Source: Anaerolineae bacterium
GTDB taxonomy: Bacteria; Chloroflexota; Anaerolineae; Aggregatilineales; Phototrophicaceae
DNA length: 64,000 bases
Direction of reading: 5' to 3'
Assembly (NCBI GenBank): GCA_023382675.1
Contig: JAHDWN010000015.1
Span: 62,001 to 126,000, forward strand
Below are positions 24,876-35,357 of this stretch, one piece after another (position 1 is the first letter of the stretch; every line of letters begins with the position of its first letter). The notes below the pieces were generated by a model. That model saw only the letters and a list, made by a program, of their open reading frames with translations. It made no database searches and was not told the DNA's origin. Made by a program: the position numbers and the translations under genes.

Positions 24876-26303
24876 TCACGTGCCGATTGCCTGATGGATT
24901 TCGGCTGGACATTCCCCGTTGCCGCTGGTTTCGTCGTAAATCATGTCTACCAGACACGAGGTTAGTTCGAATTGGAAAACGTGGACGCAGCCGCGCGGCG
25001 CGAAGTTGTCGCGGATGTGGCCGATAAGTCTTCCCTGTAGATAGAAGGGGGTGATCACGTCCAGCCGCAGCCACTCGAAGACCAGATCGCCCATGGGAGA
25101 TTTGAAGGCTTCGTACCTGGCGTTATCGCTCAGCGTCCCACCGCCAAAGGTAATGCCACTTGTCGATGTGAACGAGTAGTCGATACCGAACAGTGAGAAC
25201 GAGGTCGGATGACCATCTGAGTTGAGATGCACCATCTCATCGAGGGAGATGAATTCGCTCTTGCCGATGAGATCCTGCCACAAGTTAAAGGCACAGTCGC
25301 CCCGGCTTGCCTCGCTGTAGACTTCGAATTTCCAGATACCGTAGGGGATGATCTCGCTGTCGCTCTCGATGATTTCTTCGACCGTACCCGTATCGGCGCG
25401 CGGTGTGGGTGGGCGATTGGCGACTTCTTCTTCGCCGAAGAGTTCTTCCAGCAAGTCCTCGAAAATACCATCTTCCGGCTCTGGCGTCGGGCGCGGCACG
25501 ACCACGACCGTGCCGTCCTCATTACTGACAGACGGCGTGCCCGCCGGGAGATCGACGCCCTGTCCAACCAGCACCACCACCTCGCCATCCTGCCCACCGA
25601 CCGCTGCGTAGTGCTCCAACACTTCGACTGCCGTCGTGCCGTCTGCGTCGGCATTCACCAACACGGTGGAACCGAGGGCGAAGTGCCAGCCGTTGACCCA
25701 GGCCTCGGTCGGCAGATAGCCGCCGTCAGTCGGTGTCAGATTGGGGCTCTGGAGGATAAGACCCTGGGGCAGTTCGCTCCCGCAGGGCTGATCGGCAACG
25801 GATGTGAACGTGAATGCCTGGAGCGGCGACGGCAGGGCGTCTTCGCCCAGTGCCTCATTGACCTGAGCGGTCAGGTCGGCGACTCTCGCGTCGTCGGCTG
25901 GCGCTGCCGGATCGGCTGCCTGCTGTTGAAGACTGACGTTGCCGAGCAGCATCAGTACACTGTTGTAATCCGGCGCGGCGTCCGGCTGATTGAGCTGTAA
26001 GCGCATGACTGTCAGCGCCCAGCCAGCGCCGCCGGTCTGCGTGAGGCTGTCGATAGCCGCCGCGTCGATGCGGTCGCCAGGTTGAGCGAAAGCCGCATCC
26101 GCATAATCGGCGGTCGGGCTCAGGCTGGCGCTGCCACTGGCGAGGCAGGCTTGGTTGCGTTCCAAGCCCGCGCATTTTTCAGCCGCCGCCGCGACCGCTG
26201 CGCGGAAAAGCGCCGGGCAATCGAGCGCCTGAGCGAAGACACCGGCGACGCCGAAGATGCCCACCACCAGGGCAATGAGTACGCTGCGAACGATGGTTTT
26301 CAT
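24876..26303 (-). CDS. Secreted protein of unknown function
   Basis: A 475-residue protein that I do not recognise. The signal peptide is MKTIVRSVLIALVVGIFGVA followed by GVFAQA. A cysteine-containing N-terminal region (LDCPALFRAAVAAAAEKCAG) resembles the start of other Chloroflexota secreted proteins. A middle segment has WHFALGSTVLVNADADGTTA and VEVLEHYAAVGGQDGEVVVL. Then follows an acidic, proline-rich linker (about 270-315, including EDGIFEDLLEELFGEEE) and a C-terminal globular part with four cysteines. GGAGGATAG precedes the ATG. It lies behind the protease gene on the same strand, in a block of secreted proteins. Confidence 0.7.
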   Translation of the reverse strand: MKTIVRSVLIALVVGIFGVAGVFAQALDCPALFRAAVAAAAEKCAGLERNQACLASGSASLSPTADYADAAFAQPGDRIDAAAIDSLTQTGGAGWALTVMRLQLNQPDAAPDYNSVLMLLGNVSLQQQAADPAAPADDARVADLTAQVNEALGEDALPSPLQAFTFTSVADQPCGSELPQGLILQSPNLTPTDGGYLPTEAWVNGWHFALGSTVLVNADADGTTAVEVLEHYAAVGGQDGEVVVLVGQGVDLPAGTPSVSNEDGTVVVVPRPTPEPEDGIFEDLLEELFGEEEVANRPPTPRADTGTVEEIIESDSEIIPYGIWKFEVYSEASRGDCAFNLWQDLIGKSEFISLDEMVHLNSDGHPTSFSLFGIDYSFTSTSGITFGGGTLSDNARYEAFKSPMGDLVFEWLRLDVITPFYLQGRLIGHIRDNFAPRGCVHVFQFELTSCLVDMIYDETSGNGECPAEIHQAIGT

Positions 26304-26402: not shown

Positions 26403-29400
26403 CTACGGTGCGATGACGGGCAGGCTGTCACAACCGCCGCTGGTTGTAGCGGCTGAGCCGACCGCGCTCGTCTGAATCCATGAGTTCCAATAGTCCGTCT
26501 TCCACCAGGAGTTATCGGCCAGCCGCCCGACAGCAGTCATTTGATGACCGGGCTGCACCTGGTCGAAGATGTTGCCAGAGTCGACGACCGGGACTGTGTA
26601 GACGAGCGTTGCGCCCGTTATTGTGATCACGCAAGGGGCGGCTGGCGGCGGCGCATCCGGCGGCGATTCACGATGCTGATACGACGTGTGATAGCAGAGA
26701 CGCGTGTCGCCGGCGAAGGCGTCGATCTGAACGACGAGATTCTGGCTGCCACCGATCATCTCGCGGCTGACGTTGATTTCAGCGTTCGTGTTCGGCGCGG
26801 GGCTATCGCCCATGAAGAGCAGAGAGCCGCCAGCTTGATCAAAGATCGAGATGCGATAATGCGTGGCGGTCACGACAGGATTCCAGTAGAACGTCATCGG
26901 GCCGTTGACCATGCCGCCGCTCGGCGAAGTCAGCATGAAGCCGCTGCACATGTCAGGCGTTGCGGTTGGGGCGGGCGGCGGGGGCAGCGTTGGCTGCACA
27001 GTCGGCGTCGGCATGGGCAAAACCGGTGTCACGGGGATTGCTTCGCCAAGATCGATAGTCGGGCGCGATACGGGCGGGCACAGTGGCACACCGCCGAACT
27101 CCAACCCGATCCGCCCATTGAAGGTGATCGGCTCGTCTGCCGTCATGTCGGGGTGGAACGCCATACCGATCGCGTACTGCTGTCCGCCGAGCGGACGCAC
27201 GCGCATCGTACGCGTTTCTGCAGTGTGGCTGCTGCCGAACGAACGCCCGTCGCTGTCCTGAATCCAGGTTTGCACGTTTTCCGGCAGCCCATCCAGTGTG
27301 ACCGTCATGAACGCACCGCGAGGAAACCAGTCAAGGCCATCGTTGTTCATCTGGATCGGTAGCGTTTCGTAGCCACCGGGCTTTGGGAAGATCGTCACGT
27401 CATAGGGCACGCAATCCGATGTGAACACGCCGCCCGTATCGAAAATGGGGAAACCTTGTAGGTCCGGGCGCGTCACGCCTTCATTGCAGGTGTACGTCTC
27501 TTCGTCGTAATAGATGACGACGTCGCCGGGATCATCGTCGTAGGGATTGATATCGAGCGAGCCTTCCGCCACACCGGTCATATTGTCGCCAGTGGGGCAG
27601 ATATCGCACACATCGCCCAGCGGGTCGTTGTCGCTGTTCATCTGATCCGGGTTGTAGTTGGCAATGCAGTTGTCGTCGTCGTTGCTCCAACCGTCGCCGT
27701 CCTCATCCGGGTCACAGGCATCGCCCAGGTTGTCATTCTGCGGATCGCTGTTGATCTGATCCGGGTTGTAATCCAGGAAGCAGTTGTCCTCAACGTTGGG
27801 TACACCATCATCATCGAAGTCGCCATCTTCGGTGATATCGCAGGCTTTGCCGATACCGTTGAAGTTCTCATCGGTTTGTGACGGGTTGTAGAGTCCGGGG
27901 CAGTTATCCGGCAAGCCGCAGACATCACCGTAGCACGCTTCCGGTACGCCATCGCGATCTGCATCAATACCTTCCAGCGGATCGCAGATGTTGCCGATGC
28001 CGTCACCATCCCAATCATCCTGGATGGGATTCCAATCATTCGGGCAGTTATCAGCCGAACTCCAGACTCCATCTTCATCCGGGTCGTTCACGTTCGGTTC
28101 TTCGATGCCATCACAGTTCATGTCGCCCCGCCCCAACTCGACAGCGGCGAAGGCATTGCGTACCGCGCATACATCCTGCGCCGTGAAGCCGTACAGCGGA
28201 TTACCATTGTTGATAACCTGCGGGGGATTGGCGAACACCAATGCAGTACCAACGGCATAGTGGCGAACCCAGGGCATGTTCGTGCCTTCGGTCGCGTGCC
28301 TCGTCACCTGGTAGAAAAGACCCATCGCCTTGCTTCTGCCGATGCCGGTGACGGTATAGCCATTGAATGTTCCGCCGTCTGTGACCAGGTTCGCAGCCCG
28401 ACCCAATATCATGCTGTTGGCATGTTCGGTGAGCGCCGTGTTGTATTGACTCCAGCGGTCGGGCGCATTGTTCGTGGTCGGGTTCGCCAGATTCCAGCTC
28501 GCGCCGCTGCCATCAACCGTATTTTCGCCAATCGTCCAGTTGCCATCGCTGAAGGCAGCCATGATGTAGGCAAATCCCTCGTTGAGGACACGCGATGTAT
28601 AGGTCGCTTGCAACAAGCCCACATCGCGGTAGGAGATCACCGCATGGGTGTATTCATGCGTCAAGCGATCAAACGCAACCTTGCCGGGACGAAACTCGAT
28701 CAGGTCACAGCCGAAACCAGCCTTCCAGCGTGCATTGACGGTGCTGCTGCCATCTGTCCATTGGGAATAGACGTAGACTTCCAGATCGCCATCACTGTCG
28801 TCGTACGACTCGAGGCCAAAGTTGTCAAAGTAGAAGTTGTACGCGAAGTGCGACGCTTCCCAGGCTGTAGTGATCTCGGTATCATCCTGCCAGTCGTCGT
28901 AAACGCCATCTTCGTCCCCAACTTCCTCATCTGCCGAAGTCCACCAGTAGCAGCCGGTGTCATAATGGCTGGTGCCGTGCGCGTGCTCCAGATCGAGATC
29001 GAAGTCGGTCTCGTCCGCCTCGCGCTCGATCAGACGCGCGATTTCACCCGTGCGCGCATCCAACAGGAGTTCCGTGTTCTGGGTCATGACTTTCCAGACC
29101 AGACGCGGCTGCGACGACGCCTCGGTATCGTTGAGCGCCGGGTCAAAGATACGTAGCTCCGGCGAGAAGGGAATGGCCGCATCCGCGTCGCCAAGCACTT
29201 CTCGCGCACTGCTTCTGGTATCTGTGAACGACAGGCTCGGGCGCACGTCAATGTCGTCATCGGCGATCATGCGGCTGGTGAGGAGATTGCCCGACGCCAT
29301 ATAAACGCTGTCCCCAAGGATGGTGACGGCAAGCTGCGCGCCCTCAACCATGACGCCGCGATAAGTCTGCTCAAAGACGACCGTCTCCTCGCCCGTTTCG

Positions 29401-29756
29401 GTCATACCGATGGTCGTGCGGACATAGAGCGCCAGATCAGAATGATTTTGCAGGAACAGATCGCGATATTCATTCACGAACTCTTCGGCGCGTTCAACCT
29501 GGTTCGCGCCGCTTGTGGGAAACATGCCGAAGATCATGTTTGGGAAACCGCCCACCTGGAATTCGACGGTCGCCGGAATTTGCGACGCCGCCAGCAGGCG
29601 CTCGTAGGGCGCGCGCTGCGGGTCCTGGTAGACGACGGGGTCGCCGGTTTCTTGTGTTTGCGCTCGCGCTTCCCGAATGCCGCCAGTCGTGCTGGTTACG
29701 ATGACCAGTGCGAGCAGCATACAGACGAAACGCAGCGCATGACGAAGGCTGTACAT
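26403..29756 (-). CDS. Secreted M4 (thermolysin-like) metalloprotease with thrombospondin type 3 repeats
   Basis: A 1117-residue exported protein. A signal peptide ends near ARAQTQ; residues about 40-250 form the FTP/PepSY-type propeptide. The catalytic domain has zinc motif HEYTH at 367-371, the downstream glutamate in NEGFAYIMAAFSDGNW, and the M4-typical GIGRSKAMGLFYQVTRH. Residues about 555-725 are calcium-binding thrombospondin type 3 repeats (DxDxDG spaced by DNCP). A jelly-roll-like part, a proline/threonine linker and an ordinary beta-sandwich segment follow. The last about 78 residues (1040-1117) form a domain shared with the next gene upstream. AAGGA precedes the ATG. Expected to work outside the cell in protein digestion. 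All catalytic residues look intact. Confidence 0.88.
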   Translation of the reverse strand: MYSLRHALRFVCMLLALVIVTSTTGGIREARAQTQETGDPVVYQDPQRAPYERLLAASQIPATVEFQVGGFPNMIFGMFPTSGANQVERAEEFVNEYRDLFLQNHSDLALYVRTTIGMTETGEETVVFEQTYRGVMVEGAQLAVTILGDSVYMASGNLLTSRMIADDDIDVRPSLSFTDTRSSAREVLGDADAAIPFSPELRIFDPALNDTEASSQPRLVWKVMTQNTELLLDARTGEIARLIEREADETDFDLDLEHAHGTSHYDTGCYWWTSADEEVGDEDGVYDDWQDDTEITTAWEASHFAYNFYFDNFGLESYDDSDGDLEVYVYSQWTDGSSTVNARWKAGFGCDLIEFRPGKVAFDRLTHEYTHAVISYRDVGLLQATYTSRVLNEGFAYIMAAFSDGNWTIGENTVDGSGASWNLANPTTNNAPDRWSQYNTALTEHANSMILGRAANLVTDGGTFNGYTVTGIGRSKAMGLFYQVTRHATEGTNMPWVRHYAVGTALVFANPPQVINNGNPLYGFTAQDVCAVRNAFAAVELGRGDMNCDGIEEPNVNDPDEDGVWSSADNCPNDWNPIQDDWDGDGIGNICDPLEGIDADRDGVPEACYGDVCGLPDNCPGLYNPSQTDENFNGIGKACDITEDGDFDDDGVPNVEDNCFLDYNPDQINSDPQNDNLGDACDPDEDGDGWSNDDDNCIANYNPDQMNSDNDPLGDVCDICPTGDNMTGVAEGSLDINPYDDDPGDVVIYYDEETYTCNEGVTRPDLQGFPIFDTGGVFTSDCVPYDVTIFPKPGGYETLPIQMNNDGLDWFPRGAFMTVTLDGLPENVQTWIQDSDGRSFGSSHTAETRTMRVRPLGGQQYAIGMAFHPDMTADEPITFNGRIGLEFGGVPLCPPVSRPTIDLGEAIPVTPVLPMPTPTVQPTLPPPPAPTATPDMCSGFMLTSPSGGMVNGPMTFYWNPVVTATHYRISIFDQAGGSLLFMGDSPAPNTNAEINVSREMIGGSQNLVVQIDAFAGDTRLCYHTSYQHRESPPDAPPPAAPCVITITGATLVYTVPVVDSGNIFDQVQPGHQMTAVGRLADNSWWKTDYWNSWIQTSAVGSAATTSGGCDSLPVIAP

Positions 29757-29861: not shown

Positions 29862-31187
29862 TTAGGGCCAGGCGACCAGTGGCAGGTTGCTGCAATCGCC
29901 GCGAACTTCGCCCGCTGTGCCGAGCGCGTTCAGCCACCAGCCGCCATAGCTGGTCTTCCACCACGATGGGTCAGCATTCCAGCGTGCGGCCGGGATGATC
30001 TCGCCGCCTGCCGACACCTGGTCGTAGATGTAGGCGCTGTCGATCTCCGGGCGGGTGTAGATGCGCTCATCCGCAGTGAAGTAGACATGGCAAGGCCCAA
30101 GCACCTGTGTCGGTGGGGGAGGCGGCTGCGGCGGCGCGGCGGTCGGTGGAACGGGCGTCGGCGCTGGCGGCAGCGGCGGCGGCGCGATCACAGCCAGACT
30201 CCCGCAGCTGGCGCTGGGTGTCACTGCGACGGTTGCGACCCAGCCCGACCAGACTCCGTAGACGACATTGTAGAACGTGCCATCCGGCGAAATCCCGCTG
30301 ACTAGAGCGCTTGCGCCTGCCGGGATCGCGATGATTATGGGCGCGTTGACGCTGGCCGTCTGGCGTAAGTTCGCGCCGCTGGCGGAGTTCGGCGACACTG
30401 TGCAGTCGGCAGTCGTCTCTGACATGACGGTTGCCACTGGTGTGATGGTTGGTTGGGCATCCGTCGCACCTGACTGGCAGTCCTCGACGCTGGCAGCGAC
30501 GAGACAGACCGTGAATGATTCCGCAACGTTTGACCCGCTGTGCGCGATTTCGAGACGATAGGCAACGCTGCTCGCCGGGATATGCAGCCGAGCGCCGAGC
30601 ACATCGACTGCGAGCGTGGCGCTGACGCGCCCGGTGGACGTGTCAAGCAGACGCGCCTCGACCCCCATCGACGGCAGTCCGCTGTCGATGTAGAGATAAG
30701 CCGGTTCTGTGAGCGCGGCAAAGCTGAACAAGGCAACCGGCGCGGCGCTGCTGACTGCACTCGTGACGGCACTACCCGCAGTCAACGCGTTGACGGTGAT
30801 GGGGAGCTCGCTTACGAGCACGATCACAGTCGCTGGCGTGCCGTGCAACGTGCCGATTTCGACCGTGTAAGTTCCAGCAGCGAGCACCTCAGTCACGTTG
30901 ACCACGGTCTGAGCTTCGGCGTTAGGCTGCTCGGTGATGATTTCGCCATCGTGCAGGATGGCGATGGTTGGCTGTGCAGCATCGCTGAGCACTTGCAGCG
31001 TGACGCTGCTCGCCTGTTCCAGTGTGTACTCGTAGCGGACAGCCTCGCCTGCGGCTGTGATCTGGACGATGGCAGGCTGACCGACCATGAGTGTGCCTGT
31101 GGCGCTCTGTGCAGCGGCGGTGCCTGCCAGACACAGGAGAAGCGCAGCCGCCATGAGCAGGGTGATCCAGTGTTTTGTGACGTACAT
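29862..31187 (-). CDS. Secreted protein with PPC-like, SH3-like and shared C-terminal domain
   Basis: A 441-residue exported protein. The signal peptide ends at GTAAAQS. Residues about 25-125 resemble a pre-peptidase C-terminal type beta domain (GEAVRYEYTLEQASSVTLQV to AGTYTVEIG). Residues about 255-325 look like an SH3-type repeat (SGANLRQTASVNAPIIIAIP and WSGWVATVAV). A proline-rich linker of about 30 residues leads to residues 363-441, which align with the C-terminus of the M4 protease (YDQV, SWWKTSYGGWW, C, LP). Probably attaches to cell wall or polymer. No catalytic motif is visible. It lies 105 bases upstream of the protease gene on the same strand. Confidence 0.72.
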   Translation of the reverse strand: MYVTKHWITLLMAAALLLCLAGTAAAQSATGTLMVGQPAIVQITAAGEAVRYEYTLEQASSVTLQVLSDAAQPTIAILHDGEIITEQPNAEAQTVVNVTEVLAAGTYTVEIGTLHGTPATVIVLVSELPITVNALTAGSAVTSAVSSAAPVALFSFAALTEPAYLYIDSGLPSMGVEARLLDTSTGRVSATLAVDVLGARLHIPASSVAYRLEIAHSGSNVAESFTVCLVAASVEDCQSGATDAQPTITPVATVMSETTADCTVSPNSASGANLRQTASVNAPIIIAIPAGASALVSGISPDGTFYNVVYGVWSGWVATVAVTPSASCGSLAVIAPPPLPPAPTPVPPTAAPPQPPPPPTQVLGPCHVYFTADERIYTRPEIDSAYIYDQVSAGGEIIPAARWNADPSWWKTSYGGWWLNALGTAGEVRGDCSNLPLVAWP

Positions 31188-31242
31188 TCAGATGTCCTTC
31201 TGATCAGTTCGTGTTGATATTCAGTGTCGAGTGCGTAAAGTT

Positions 31243-31482
31243 TCAGCTTCTGTCGCCGAGTGTCTGCACCGAGATGATGATGAGGCGCAGATCACGCAGG
31301 CGGCGGAGTATCCCATGCAGTGCAGATTGATCGATCACGTCGCCTGTGAGCCGCGTTTCACCGCTGTCCAGGCGCGCAACTACCCAGCCGTCAAGCCAAT
31401 CCGACCAACTTTCGTCCAGGTGTCCCTTCACACGGATTTCGTAACGCGTTTCACCTGTGTCGTCGTTTGAAAACTGCGTCAT
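31243..31482 (-). CDS. Small conserved cytosolic protein (79 aa)
   Basis: A 79-residue protein from an ATG at 31482 with AAGGA seven bases upstream; an earlier in-frame start has no site. The pattern RYEIRVKGHLDESWSDWLDG, then WVVARLDSGETRLTGDVIDQ and SALHGILRRLRDLRLIIISV, is a small family I have seen in Chloroflexota and actinobacteria, with the core GHLDxxWxxW and DQxALHGxLxxLRDL. No function is known to me. Its promoter region (31528-31602) carries the same GGTTGATY element as the promoter of the next upstream gene, which suggests common control by the MalT-type regulator. Confidence 0.7.
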   Translation of the reverse strand: MTQFSNDDTGETRYEIRVKGHLDESWSDWLDGWVVARLDSGETRLTGDVIDQSALHGILRRLRDLRLIIISVQTLGDRS

Positions 31483-31555
31483 GATGGTGTCCTTGTCATC
31501 AGCCCTCTCCACTCTCTGCGTATGCATTCGATAGCATCATGATATAAGGAGCGGG

Positions 31556-31602
31556 GGTTGATCCGGGCGATCCGAAAGATGTAGATTGCCGGTTGATTCT
31601 TG
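31556..31602 (-). repeat. GGTTGATY element, copy A (promoter of the 79-aa protein gene)
   Basis: GGTTGATCC at 31556 and GGTTGATTC at 31591 (35 bases apart) flank a block containing CGATCCGAAAGATGTAGAT. The whole about 47-base stretch is nearly identical to copy B at 32572-32617. Read on the minus strand it lies just upstream of a TATATC minus-10-like hexamer and about 75 bases before the gene start, as expected for an activator site. Confidence 0.65.
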
Positions 31603-31664
31603 TGCGTTGGGCTGCGAGCAGGCGAAGCGCATCATGGACTGTCGTCTGCTGTGCCTGATATGCC

Positions 31665-32513
31665 TTACTCGATGGTTGCGCTTATGTCCAGCTTGCCGAG
31701 TCCATAATCACCCGCATTTGGCTCCAGCCGGTCAACGAAGAAGACATCCATCACCATGAACAGATATTGCCCATCGCTCATCAGGGGAACAGCTTCGAGC
31801 GTAGCAGCACTGGTGCTGCCGTCCAGCGTCGCGCTCATGGCGATGCGCGTACCATCCGGCGCAAACAGGTGAATGATGGGCGTCAGGCGGGAGCTCTCTG
31901 AACTGGCGTCGAGGCTGACCATTTCGTCTTCTGCGCCTTCGAAGGTGAAATAACCGATTGGCTGTTCGGCGTCCAGCGCGTGCTCAAGATCGTCGCCAGC
32001 TTCGACCGCCGTCGCGACGAGTGGGGCAACGTCAGCATCGCTGTCGAGAATGAGACTGTTACCGGTCAACACCAATTCGTAGGCTTGTGGAGCCGCCAGC
32101 GCGAACTCACTCACCATCATGCCGTCGATGAAATCGTAGCTCGTTGCCAGCACGTAGTAGCGGCCAGCATACGGCAGCGAGAAATCCTGAATGAGCGCTG
32201 CGCCAAAGGCTTCGCCGCTGTCGTCGTCGTAGGTGAGCACTTGTCCACGGTCGCCGAGCAGCACCAGGTATGCGTCCATATCGCCGCGCAAGCCGATGTC
32301 CACGAGGTCGCCTTCGCTGCCGTTGAAAGCATAGAGCCTCGCGGTGGCAGCGCCTTCGAACTGTTCCTGAACTGGGGTACCGGTCTCCAGCATCATCGGC
32401 ATGAAGGGGGGTGTCGTCTCGGTTTGGGCGGCGGCGGTGTTCAGCGCCAGCCACCAGATGAGCACGAAACCGAACGCGCCCAGGAGCGCGCGGCTGTTGA
32501 GAGCGTGATTCAT
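31665..32513 (-). CDS. Secreted PPC-domain protein
   Basis: A 282-residue exported protein from an ATG at 32513 preceded by AGGGA; six more residues upstream lack a site. The signal peptide is MNHALNSRALLGAFGFVLIW followed by WLALNTAAAQ. Two repeats of a beta-sandwich resembling bacterial pre-peptidase C-terminal domains can be seen: one around ATARLYAFNGSEGDLVDIGL and MDAYLVLLGDRGQVLTYDDD, and one around QPIGYFTFEGAEDEMVSLDA and LTPIIHLFAPDGTRIA. No enzyme motif. Role probably structural or ligand binding on the surface. It is the first gene behind the MalT-type regulator and has the GGTTGATY elements in its promoter. Confidence 0.75.
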   Translation of the reverse strand: MNHALNSRALLGAFGFVLIWWLALNTAAAQTETTPPFMPMMLETGTPVQEQFEGAATARLYAFNGSEGDLVDIGLRGDMDAYLVLLGDRGQVLTYDDDSGEAFGAALIQDFSLPYAGRYYVLATSYDFIDGMMVSEFALAAPQAYELVLTGNSLILDSDADVAPLVATAVEAGDDLEHALDAEQPIGYFTFEGAEDEMVSLDASSESSRLTPIIHLFAPDGTRIAMSATLDGSTSAATLEAVPLMSDGQYLFMVMDVFFVDRLEPNAGDYGLGKLDISATIE

Positions 32514-32536
32514 AGCAGTCCCTATCTCCAATTCGC

Positions 32537-32617
32537 GGTTGATTTGATAGGCTTACATTACGCGCAGGCGAGGTTGATCCGTGCGATCCGAAAGGTGTAG
32601 ATCGGGGTTGATTTTTG
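32537..32617 (-). repeat. GGTTGATY elements, copy B (promoter of the PPC-domain gene)
   Basis: Three GGTTGATY copies start at 32537, 32572 and 32606, spaced 35 and 34 bases. The segment 32572-32617 matches 31556-31602 almost base for base (shared CGATCCGAAAG, GTGTAGAT, GGTTGATT). On the minus strand the block lies between the regulator's stop codon and the PPC-domain gene start, with TAATGT as a possible minus-10. Confidence 0.65.
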
Positions 32618-32618
32618 C

Positions 32619-35357
32619 TTAGAGCAGGCCGTAATCGCGCGCGATGGCGAGGGCGTGCGTGCGGCTGTCGGCGCCGAGTTTGATGAAGATGTTGGCGACG
32701 TGCCGTTTGACCGTGCCAATGGAAACGTAGAGCTTCTGCGCGATTTCGGTGTTCGAAAGCCCCTGGTGGATCAAATGCAGCACTTCTAATTCGCGCTCGG
32801 TCAGCGGCTCCAGGTCGCCAGCCGGCGCAGGGCGGGGCGCAGCGGGCGATTCCGCATTCAGTGAGAAAACGGCAAAAGCGGCCAGCACTGAGGCGCTGAA
32901 GGGCGTGCTTTCCCCGCGCTGGTGCAGTCGTTGCAGAAGATTTCGCATCGGGTCGCCGCAGATGCAGAAGGGATAGACGACGCGCTCCGGTTCGGCCAGT
33001 GCGAGCGCTGAGCGCAGCATGTCCAGGCCGCGCTCGACAGCGCCGGTGCTCACATAGATAACCGACAGCATGGCGCGCGCTCTCAATTCCCAGATGGCCG
33101 TCTTGCGCTCAACGGCGTGCCTGAGAATTTCGTTGACCCAGACCAGCACCGCGTCCCAGGTTGAGAGTGGTTGTGGGCTGCACTGCAAGTCCAGCATCAA
33201 GACGTGTGTCCGCAGGATATGCAGCAGCAGCCACGGTCTGTGGTCGAAATTTTGATTGATGGTGTCGGCGTTAGGGCGGAGATCCAGACCGCTCGCCAGC
33301 ATCGACTGCCGCGCCTGCTCATGGTTGCCGATGAGTGCCAGCACAAATGCGTAGGTGCTGAGTTCGACCGGGACATCAAGCTCCGGGTTAGCTGCGATGA
33401 CAACAGCGGCTTTCTCAGTAGAGACGTGCGCTTCTTCTTTCATGCCCAACAGCCACTGCAATTCGGCCAGGTGGAGCCAGGCGGGGGTGGTGAGCGCGGA
33501 AATGCCGAGAGGCTCGGCAATCGCCAGCGTTTGCTCACAGTAGGCATGCGCCAGTTCAAGCTCACCGCGGAGTATGGTGATGCGCGACAGATTGAAGAGC
33601 ACGTTCGCCAGTTCGGCGTGGTGCATCTGTCCCCAGGCTCTGGCTCTGGCGTTTGCCATCTCTAAAACGCGCACCGCCTCGCCGAAACGCCCCTCGTATT
33701 GCAGCACGATTCCCAGGATCTTGTAAGCTTCCATCATGACGTTGAAGCCATGATGCTGCTCGGCCAATGTGATAACTTCACCAGCTGTTACGCGTGCGGC
33801 GTTCGGCTCGCCCTGGAGCATGTGTACCCAGGCTTTTTGCAGGGCAGCGTTCACATACCAGTGATAGTCGTCGGCAATCAGCGGCAGTGCGTGTGCCAGG
33901 AGCATAGCGCTGCGTGCCAGATCGTTCTCCAATTCCTGCGCAAGAATGCTTTCGAGAACATTAATTCTGGCTTGAAGGCGCTGCCCATAGGCATCTGCGC
34001 GGCTGTTCGCGATGGTCTGCACCTGGTTGAGCCACAACCTGACCTCTGGAAGATGCCCGCGCTGGGTCTTGGTGTAAAGGAAAGCTGCCAGGAGCAGCAG
34101 TTCCGGCGCTGCGTGCAGGGCATCAGGCGGGAGGCGGTGAATCCAGCTCAGCGGATGTTCATAGCCTTCTCGCTCGATATAGTCAAAGCCGTGCTCGCCC
34201 AGATAGCGCGCGGCTTCGGCGAAAGCTTTCGCCTCAAACAGGTGATACATCACCGTCTGAAGTTGCTGCTGCTGAGCGTACCAGGCGGCGGCGCGCCTGT
34301 GCAATTCGGCTGTCTGCGCGGCTGCTGCGCGCTGCTGGCGATGTCTGAGAACTGCAGCGAACAGGTGATGGTAGCGAAACCATTGATTTTCGCTATCCAG
34401 CGGGATGATGAACAGATTAAGCTCGGAGATGCGTTCAAGCAGTTGCTGAGCGACCATTTCTGGCTTTTCAGTCACAGCGGCACACAGCGAGCCGGTCATG
34501 GCGCGCAGGATCGACGTTTCCAACAAGAAATGCCGGATGTCTTCGGGCTGTCGCTCGAACACCTCTTCCATCAAATAATCGACGACGTAGCGGTGACTGC
34601 CGGAGAAGGCCCGGATGAACTCGTTCACGTCGGTGCGCCCACGCAGCGCCAGCGCCGCCAGTTTCAGCCCCGCCGCCCAACCTTCGATGCGTTCGTCGAG
34701 GGCAGCCAACTGAGCATCGGTCAGCGCAAGATCGAATTCGCTGCGGATGAAGCGCGCGGTTTCTTCCGGCGTGAAGCGCAGTTCGGCTTCGCGAATCTCG
34801 ACCAGTTGGCCACGCGCACGCAGCCGACCGAGTGGCAGCGGCGGGTCTTCACGCGTGGTGATGACGAGATGCATTCGCGGCGGCATGTGCTCGATCAGGT
34901 AGGTAACCGCCTCGTGTACCTGCGCGTTGTCAATGCGATGATAATCATCCAGGACGAGCAAGAAATCGACCGGTGTCTCGAACAGGTGCTTGATCAACAG
35001 CGCGGCAATCGTTTGCGGTGCGGGCGGGGGCGTCATGTTGAGCAGCGATTGCATCTGCTCCAGGATATCTGGCTTGATGTCGTCGAGGGCGGCAGTGATG
35101 TAGGTGGCAAACTGAGCCGGTTCACTGTCATCTTCGTCAAGGCTGACCCAGGCGAGCGGAATCTCAGTACTGGCCTGTGACTGATGCCAGTTGGTGATGA
35201 CGGTCGATTTGCCAAATCCGGCGGGCGCACAGATGAGCGTGACCGGGTGAGCCAGCGCCTGTTCGCAATACCGGTCGAGTCGAGGGCGTTCGACCACCTG
35301 ATGCCGGGTTATCGGCGGTGATATTTTCGTGCGGAGCAGCAAACCTGAATCGAGCAT
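32619..35357 (-). CDS. MalT-type (LAL) LuxR-family ATP-dependent transcriptional activator
   Basis: A 912-residue regulator. Residues 1-300 form the NTPase with Walker A APAGFGKST at about 44-52 and Walker B FLLVLDDYHRI near 137. Residues about 390-800 are TPR-like helical repeats (for example AVRVLEMANARARAWGQMHH and ALTTPAWLHLAELQWLLGMK). Residues about 848-912 are the LuxR helix-turn-helix LTERELEVLHLIHQGLSNTE, IAQKLYVSIGTVKRHVANI. MalT-type proteins bind ATP plus an inducer and activate neighbouring promoters. The two repeat-bearing promoters downstream (31556, 32572) are the obvious candidate targets. Inducer unknown. The 179-base region upstream of its start shows no such repeats, so it is probably not autoactivated. 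Confidence 0.92.
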   Translation of the reverse strand: MLDSGLLLRTKISPPITRHQVVERPRLDRYCEQALAHPVTLICAPAGFGKSTVITNWHQSQASTEIPLAWVSLDEDDSEPAQFATYITAALDDIKPDILEQMQSLLNMTPPPAPQTIAALLIKHLFETPVDFLLVLDDYHRIDNAQVHEAVTYLIEHMPPRMHLVITTREDPPLPLGRLRARGQLVEIREAELRFTPEETARFIRSEFDLALTDAQLAALDERIEGWAAGLKLAALALRGRTDVNEFIRAFSGSHRYVVDYLMEEVFERQPEDIRHFLLETSILRAMTGSLCAAVTEKPEMVAQQLLERISELNLFIIPLDSENQWFRYHHLFAAVLRHRQQRAAAAQTAELHRRAAAWYAQQQQLQTVMYHLFEAKAFAEAARYLGEHGFDYIEREGYEHPLSWIHRLPPDALHAAPELLLLAAFLYTKTQRGHLPEVRLWLNQVQTIANSRADAYGQRLQARINVLESILAQELENDLARSAMLLAHALPLIADDYHWYVNAALQKAWVHMLQGEPNAARVTAGEVITLAEQHHGFNVMMEAYKILGIVLQYEGRFGEAVRVLEMANARARAWGQMHHAELANVLFNLSRITILRGELELAHAYCEQTLAIAEPLGISALTTPAWLHLAELQWLLGMKEEAHVSTEKAAVVIAANPELDVPVELSTYAFVLALIGNHEQARQSMLASGLDLRPNADTINQNFDHRPWLLLHILRTHVLMLDLQCSPQPLSTWDAVLVWVNEILRHAVERKTAIWELRARAMLSVIYVSTGAVERGLDMLRSALALAEPERVVYPFCICGDPMRNLLQRLHQRGESTPFSASVLAAFAVFSLNAESPAAPRPAPAGDLEPLTERELEVLHLIHQGLSNTEIAQKLYVSIGTVKRHVANIFIKLGADSRTHALAIARDYGLL

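Follow-up and report, generated by a model that had tools for sequence, protein, structure and literature searches.

Putative operators of a MalT-type regulator in an Anaerolineae genome, and a related half-site geometry behind regulators of the phylum

In a 64,000-nucleotide stretch of an Anaerolineae bacterium genome (contig JAHDWN010000015.1, positions 62,001 to 126,000; hereafter the window), two blocks of about 45 bp carrying copies of GGTTGATY stand upstream of two genes that follow a large regulator of the MalT type, thereby raising the question of which protein, if any, these blocks serve. The comparisons described below suggest that both are very probably operators of the adjacent regulator; that this regulator acts on the two following genes as an activator is less sure.

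The regulator locus and its two repeated blocks

On the minus strand the order is regulator, first block, a gene for a PPC-domain protein, second block, and a gene for a 79-residue protein, as set out in the following feature list, in which G002 denotes a second genome of the same genus as that of the window (G000).

32619 to 35357, minus strand: MalT-type LAL (STAND) regulator, 912 aa (Pfam TPR_MalT 8.3e-18, GerE 3.3e-17)
32606 to 32612, minus strand: D1 (ATCAACC) of the putative PPC-gene operator, 6 bases past the regulator stop codon; conserved in G002
32594 to 32600, minus strand: D2 (CTACACC) of the putative PPC-gene operator, register from the operator alignment
32583 to 32589, plus strand: putative I2' of the PPC-gene operator, inverted, facing D2 and degenerate, placed by the general geometry
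32572 to 32578, minus strand: D3 (ATCAACC) of the putative PPC-gene operator, 34 bp from D1
32555 to 32560, minus strand: putative −10 element TAATGT of the PPC gene, starting 17 bp past the D3 T, position taken from the aligned set
32537 to 32543, minus strand: fifth ATCAACC copy, lying 35 bp past D3 and not kept in G002
31665 to 32513, minus strand: first putative target gene, PPC-domain protein (Pfam PPC 1.1e-09 for the ORF 31665–32531; ATG at 32513)
31591 to 31597, minus strand: D1 (ATCAACC) of the putative small-gene operator, from the sequence
31578 to 31584, minus strand: D2 (CTACATC) of the putative small-gene operator, from the sequence
31567 to 31573, plus strand: putative I2' of the small-gene operator, inverted and degenerate, placed by the general geometry
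31556 to 31562, minus strand: D3 (ATCAACC) of the putative small-gene operator, 35 bp from D1
31539 to 31544, minus strand: putative −10 element TATCAT of the small gene, starting 17 bp past the D3 T
31243 to 31482, minus strand: second putative target gene, 79-aa protein of a family found behind LAL regulators across the phylum

The regulator comprises an ATPase region, a MalT-like TPR region and a C-terminal GerE helix-turn-helix (HTH) domain with the recognition helix SIGTVKRHVANIF, and was assigned to the MalT-type LAL/STAND class on the basis of matches to TPR_MalT and GerE above their cut-offs, those to AAA_16 and NACHT lying below theirs. The NCBIfam model for MalT (NF003420) aligned over residues 7–478, and its score of 401.2 bits, under the curated cut-off of 537 for this equivalog, led to the rejection of identity with MalT itself. 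No SARP-type domain was present among the ten Pfam matches to the regulator.

No Pfam or NCBIfam match to the 79-residue protein was recorded at E ≤ 0.001. The fold predicted for it is ferredoxin-like (AlphaFold2 mean pLDDT 84.3), with a best Foldseek E value of 4.4e-3 (to acylphosphatase) and VIA-align Z scores of up to 7.7 (to Lrp/AsnC proteins), the resemblance being to acylphosphatases and Lrp-type effector domains; because these structural scores fall within the range of common arrangements, no function is claimed. The small gene was detected at E ≤ 1e-10 in 81 of 400 genomes of the phylum, and among 153 such genes in 146 loci, 80 lay under 700 bp behind a LAL regulator on the same strand, with 30 further behind a LAL, 32 in stretches without one and 11 in other arrangements. 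These counts mark the small gene as a widespread partner, across the phylum, of MalT-type (LAL/STAND) regulators. The protein family that is linked in this way to LAL regulators has about 65 residues and the pattern YEIRxKGHLDxxW...DQAALHGLLxKxRDLG. Farther downstream in the window, beyond the small gene, positions 26403–29756 of the minus strand encode a thermolysin-type (M4) metallopeptidase with thrombospondin type 3 repeats, the two minus-strand neighbours of which (24876–26303 and 29862–31187) are without a Pfam match.

The five exact copies of GGTTGATY reported in the initial annotation were confirmed at 31556, 31591, 32537, 32572 and 32606, as was their regular start-to-start spacing of 35 (31556–31591), 35 (32537–32572) and 34 bases (32572–32606), and the near-identity claimed for the two blocks was upheld by agreement at 38 of 45 aligned columns. 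Both target genes had been placed immediately behind the regulator, a description that applies to the PPC gene but not to the 79-aa gene, which stands behind the PPC gene instead; nor can all five copies be assigned to the shared block, since the fifth (32537) lies outside it and is missing from the orthologous promoter of G002. Situated near the presumed transcript start, this fifth copy may be a fourth direct half-site special to the window genome, or may be due to chance. Counting both strands, the window contains 12 matches to GGTTGATY, a number reached by none of 100 dinucleotide shuffles (mean 4.08, sd 1.88). On the minus strand, that of the genes, the block reads ATCAACC...CTACAYCTTTCGGATCG...ATCAACC, and a search of the 6,417,468-base assembly with a degenerate 33-mer (up to three mismatches) located it at exactly two places, 1016 bp apart, the reversed-pattern control giving no match in the same assembly.

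A search of relatives, proposed when the repeats were first reported, was duly conducted: the element proved to be conserved beside the orthologous regulator of G002, and the lack of conservation that would count against a binding site was not encountered. With a threshold of E ≤ 1e-180, and at most seven candidates scored in each of 121 genomes, the only match to the regulator besides that of the window was the G002 protein (53% identical), followed in the same order by the PPC gene (48%) and the small gene (56%), with the element at both places as in the window genome and the repeat stopping after 47 bases. A consensus pattern with up to three mismatches was positive in two of 154 genomes of the order, with two copies in each, the other 152 being without it, and its reversed control gave no match in the rows listed for these 154 genomes; the exact pattern of the window block had missed G002 in a search of 151 genomes because it was too strict. 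The two G002 copies agreed at 40 of 45 columns and the four between-genome comparisons at 35 to 37; the two copies of one genome thus resemble each other a little more closely, by a small margin, as they should if both track a single protein.

In the loci scanned at that stage for the block beside other copies of the small gene, it was confined to G000 and G002, apart from a single match with five mismatches in another locus (L045). This distribution at first resembled a refutation, until the corresponding gaps were found to contain other words in the same geometry. In a further locus (L162), an exact 16-base core of the window operator, CTACACCTTTCGGATC, was recorded at plus-strand offset 146, at the end of a LAL gene, in the opposite orientation; the helix of that LAL, AKGTVKRHISNLYG, also has G at the key place.

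A shared geometry between regulator and small gene

Removal of near-copies and of gaps under 70 bases reduced the 80 regulator-to-small-gene gaps to 77, and the exclusion of one further locus (L196), in which a run of N fell in a scored place, reduced them to 76 and the accepted operators from 38 of 77 to 37 of 76. Direct 6-mer pairs in these 76 non-redundant gaps were found at spacings of 12 bp in 29 gaps, 13 bp in 19, 22 bp in 14, 23 bp in 19, 34 bp in 11 and 35 bp in 18, compared with averages of 10.3, 4.8, 3.9, 3.9, 3.5 and 3.3, respectively, in control windows of the same length drawn elsewhere in the loci (30 draws). A spacing of 11 bp was raised too (10 gaps versus 4.6), and elevated control values at multiples of three were taken for codon periodicity. 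In the region upstream of the LAL gene, pairs at 12, 23 and 35 bp were present in 7, 5 and 1 of 71 cases.

The spacings sum consistently (12/13 + 22/23 = 34/35), and exact 5-mer triples at 0, 12/13 and 34/35 occurred in 14 of 76 gaps as opposed to an average of 0.10 (largest 2) in 200 shuffles; in a grid of spacings, the four best combinations all fell at 11–13 and 34–36. A scan for this geometry yielded operators that beat all 20 of their own shuffles in 37 of the 76 gaps, as against roughly one gap in 21 by chance; no operator did so in the other 39, though some of these pass the scan developed for the ALxTVKGHN family of helices. The resultant layout consists of three direct half-sites in the order D1-12/13-D2-22/23-D3, together with an inverted half-site facing D2. 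Alignment of the 37 operators brought out a TAxxxT element at +16 to +21 from D3, with 0.5–0.8 bit for T, A and T, and a similar hexamer lies at +17 in both window promoters and in the small-gene promoter of G002, its counterpart in the G002 PPC promoter being poor.

The 34–35-bp spacing first noticed in the window therefore corresponds to the D1–D3 distance of a general operator, and the pair of repeats ascribed to each promoter, real as these repeats are, is better seen as part of an operator of four half-sites. In the window, D1 and D3 are exact and D2 and I2' degenerate, giving several copies in register upstream of each target.

In L095 and L098, too, elements are repeated in the interval from the LAL to the small gene, at distances of 1814 and 2460 bp. 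Another locus (L096), behind a LAL with the helix ALNTVKRHTGSIYS, has a tandem array of a 22-bp unit in at least five copies that is unlike the four-half-site operator.

Half-site words and the recognition helix

Inspection of the aligned rows by eye indicated that SLNTxRTHTK helices pair with TCACCAC, ALDTVKGHN with CAACACC, and ALSTVKGHN and ALVTVKVHN with CAATACC or CTATACC. Within the ALxTVKGHN/KVHN family, 26 operators were accepted from the 33 regulators examined, using a scan motif that was written after the sequences had been seen and that left only the tested base unscored. By majority of the four half-sites, x = D or N went with C in 15 of 15 cases, and T accompanied S, P or V in all 11 of the others; for single half-sites, the corresponding figures were C at 56 of 60 and T at 40 of 44. 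Among the seven rejected rows, two D regulators (L186 and L177) have C at three of four half-sites and a third (L211) shows a AACACTTTGGTGT core; no clear base was apparent in the E row (L192) or the two G rows (L189 and L201), and the last (L054) showed nothing.

On a protein tree built without the HTH, the scored rows imply six changes of the helix residue and as many of the base. Six independent contrasts were available on the best tree, of which the three on supported branches were all concordant (sign test p 0.25), too few for any significance to be claimed for the residue–base rule. In a later set of ten regulators, all three accepted operators fit the predicted base, and six of the seven below threshold carried it at D2, the best place in the remaining one (L253) not being the core; several of these rows share near-identical helices and gaps. 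More generally, half-site likeness followed helix likeness in 37 regulators of all families (Mantel r 0.609), and a partial Mantel value of 0.407, conditioned on the rest of the protein, was equalled in none of 2000 permutations, although some shared ancestry remains in such a test. This set comprised 35 of the 37 aligned regulators plus those of G000 and G002, with L144 and L198 left out on account of short ORFs.

The window helix SIGTVKRHVANIF and the G002 helix SVGTIKRHIANVY both have G at the key place and share the half-site TCAACC. Several observations lie to one side of the rule. The window's G helix goes with A at the tested base, and the helices ALGTVKGHN and VLGTVKGHN of L189 and L201, also with G at the key place, have cores seemingly with G or A, below the scan threshold, so few G cases being insufficient for a rule. 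With VRTHTK helices, a change from SLNT to ALST (L190 and L138) goes with a change from TCACCAC to TCCCCAC, a candidate second residue–base pair represented by two cases. That these ALST helices read TCCCCAC speaks against a general rule, so that the residue rule holds within its own helix context. In the wider pattern, every LAL regulator is paired with a word of its own as landing site, which one helix residue apparently helps to determine.

The operator reading, its competitors and known systems

The interpretation of the blocks as binding sites of the regulator, offered in the initial annotation, is both supported and extended, by conservation with the orthologous regulator and by half-site words that track the helix. 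The latter relationship implicates the regulator itself, since the gap behind other regulators of the type often holds a similarly spaced element whose half-site goes with the recognition helix, and the presence of only two sites in the genome suits a local regulator. If so, the regulator would bind ATP and an inducer and then oligomerise as MalT does, its GerE domains settling cooperatively on the half-site array. The D2/I2' box would then occupy about −50 to −35, and D3, within the −35/−10 spacer, would assist sigma where the promoter is poor; in this way both the PPC gene and the small gene would be activated from promoters without a canonical −35. Were the TAxxxT-like element the −10, D3 would lie at about −28 to −22 and D2/I2' would end near −35. 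No canonical sigma-70 promoter was found in 31450–32700 (0.6 in shuffles), as is expected for an activator-dependent promoter, albeit as a weak argument.

A variant of the operator reading, that the LAL binds and represses, with D3 blocking the −35/−10 spacer, would suit the position of D3 just upstream of the −10-like element. It is nonetheless considered unlikely: as noted, a canonical sigma-70 promoter was not found (a weak point), both MalT and its Actinoplanes counterpart activate from boxes located at the −35 region in the available text of PMC7567727, and in that of PMC10936776 SARPs act as activators through a repeat that is 8 bp away from the −10 element. That the blocks are operators of another regulator encoded elsewhere, the LAL being a coincidental neighbour, is a still slimmer prospect, to which the degenerate state of D2 and I2' in the window lends something; against it, the element begins 6 bases behind the LAL stop codon and is kept with the LAL orthologue in G002, other LALs have the same geometry with words following their recognition helices, and two sites in a whole genome fit a local regulator.

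Placed directly behind the regulator stop codon, the first copy might suggest that the block acts in the mRNA, as an RNA element or a terminator. However, the folding of both blocks was no better than that of shuffles (z 0.01), the single Rfam match in 31000–33000 (20.9 bits, the cut-off being 95) and the only terminator-like site (32475–32492) lie outside them, and the features that they share are half-sites upstream of a −10-like element; with no family match above cut-off and no fold beyond shuffles, this highly improbable reading was rejected. Most improbable of all is a recent local duplication or functionless mobile repeat: the two copies are only 1016 bp apart, but both places are occupied in G002 too, where the regulator is only 53% identical and the repeat ends after 47 bases, and with no third copy at up to three mismatches in the 6.4-Mb assembly a mobile or genome-wide repeat was rejected.

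Operator arrays of MalT-type regulators are already known in kind. The MalT boxes of E. coli and K. pneumoniae, GGGGA(T/G)GAGG, are repeated, overlap the −35 region and serve activation (available text of PMC7567727), and MalT, for which malPp800 has four sites, oligomerises (available text of PMC10427625). The window regulator resembles MalT in its parts (ATPase region, MalT-like TPR and GerE) and in having several sites per promoter, but differs in that its half-site words are regulator-specific (ATCAACC/GGTTGAT in the window), in an arrangement that combines one inverted half-site with three direct ones, spaced at 12/13 and 34/35 bp, and in its putative targets, the next genes rather than mal genes. 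In Actinoplanes, as far as the available text of PMC7567727 extends, MalT has the palindrome TCATCC-N5-GGATGA at 17 promoters of one large region, its 3' end 34.4 ± 1.0 nt from the start site. The inverted D2/I2' pair is comparable (TCACCA-N4-TGGTGA in L068 and others, for example) and would end similarly at about −35, judging by where the −10-like element falls in the alignment; D1 and D3 come on top of the palindrome described there.

Short direct repeats are also a feature of SARP operators (AfsR, PimR): three heptamers form the main PimR operator in the available text of PMC5930380, and in that of PMC10936776 a distance of 8 bp separates the SARP 3' repeat from the −10, with the proteins sitting between −35 DNA and sigma region 4, an arrangement that the presence of D3 in the spacer recalls. 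Nevertheless, SARP periods are 11 or 22 bp, as opposed to 12/13 and 22/23 bp with one inverted half-site here, and the DNA-binding domain there is other than the GerE-type HTH. A SARP operator was accordingly rejected for the window, with D1–D2 at 12/13 and D1–D3 at 34/35, as in the set of gaps, and a regulator that has GerE and is without a SARP-type domain. Inference from residue–base correlations has a precedent in Prot-DNA-Korr, applied to the MerR family in the available text of PMC5045206.

In the literature searched, mostly open-access, there was no description of the four-half-site geometry, of phylum-wide regulator-specific words or of the residue–base rule, nor any target site of LAL regulators for this phylum. 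As a rather doubtful generalisation, LALs might constitute, throughout the phylum, insulated one-regulator, one-operator modules, each with a private half-site word and a code in which one helix residue sets one base; the fixed four-half-site array would template the oligomer, and the small ferredoxin-like protein, switched on by the regulator, would serve as its dedicated feedback or ligand partner. Such large regulators driven by ATP seem to be numerous, since up to 53 candidates for the window regulator were counted at first look in one genome of the genus, among the matches listed. A fixed geometry, combined with a word that follows the helix, would allow their operators and targets to be read from sequence; it also supplies candidate orthogonal switch/operator pairs, and DNA arrays on which the assembly of STAND oligomers may be tested.
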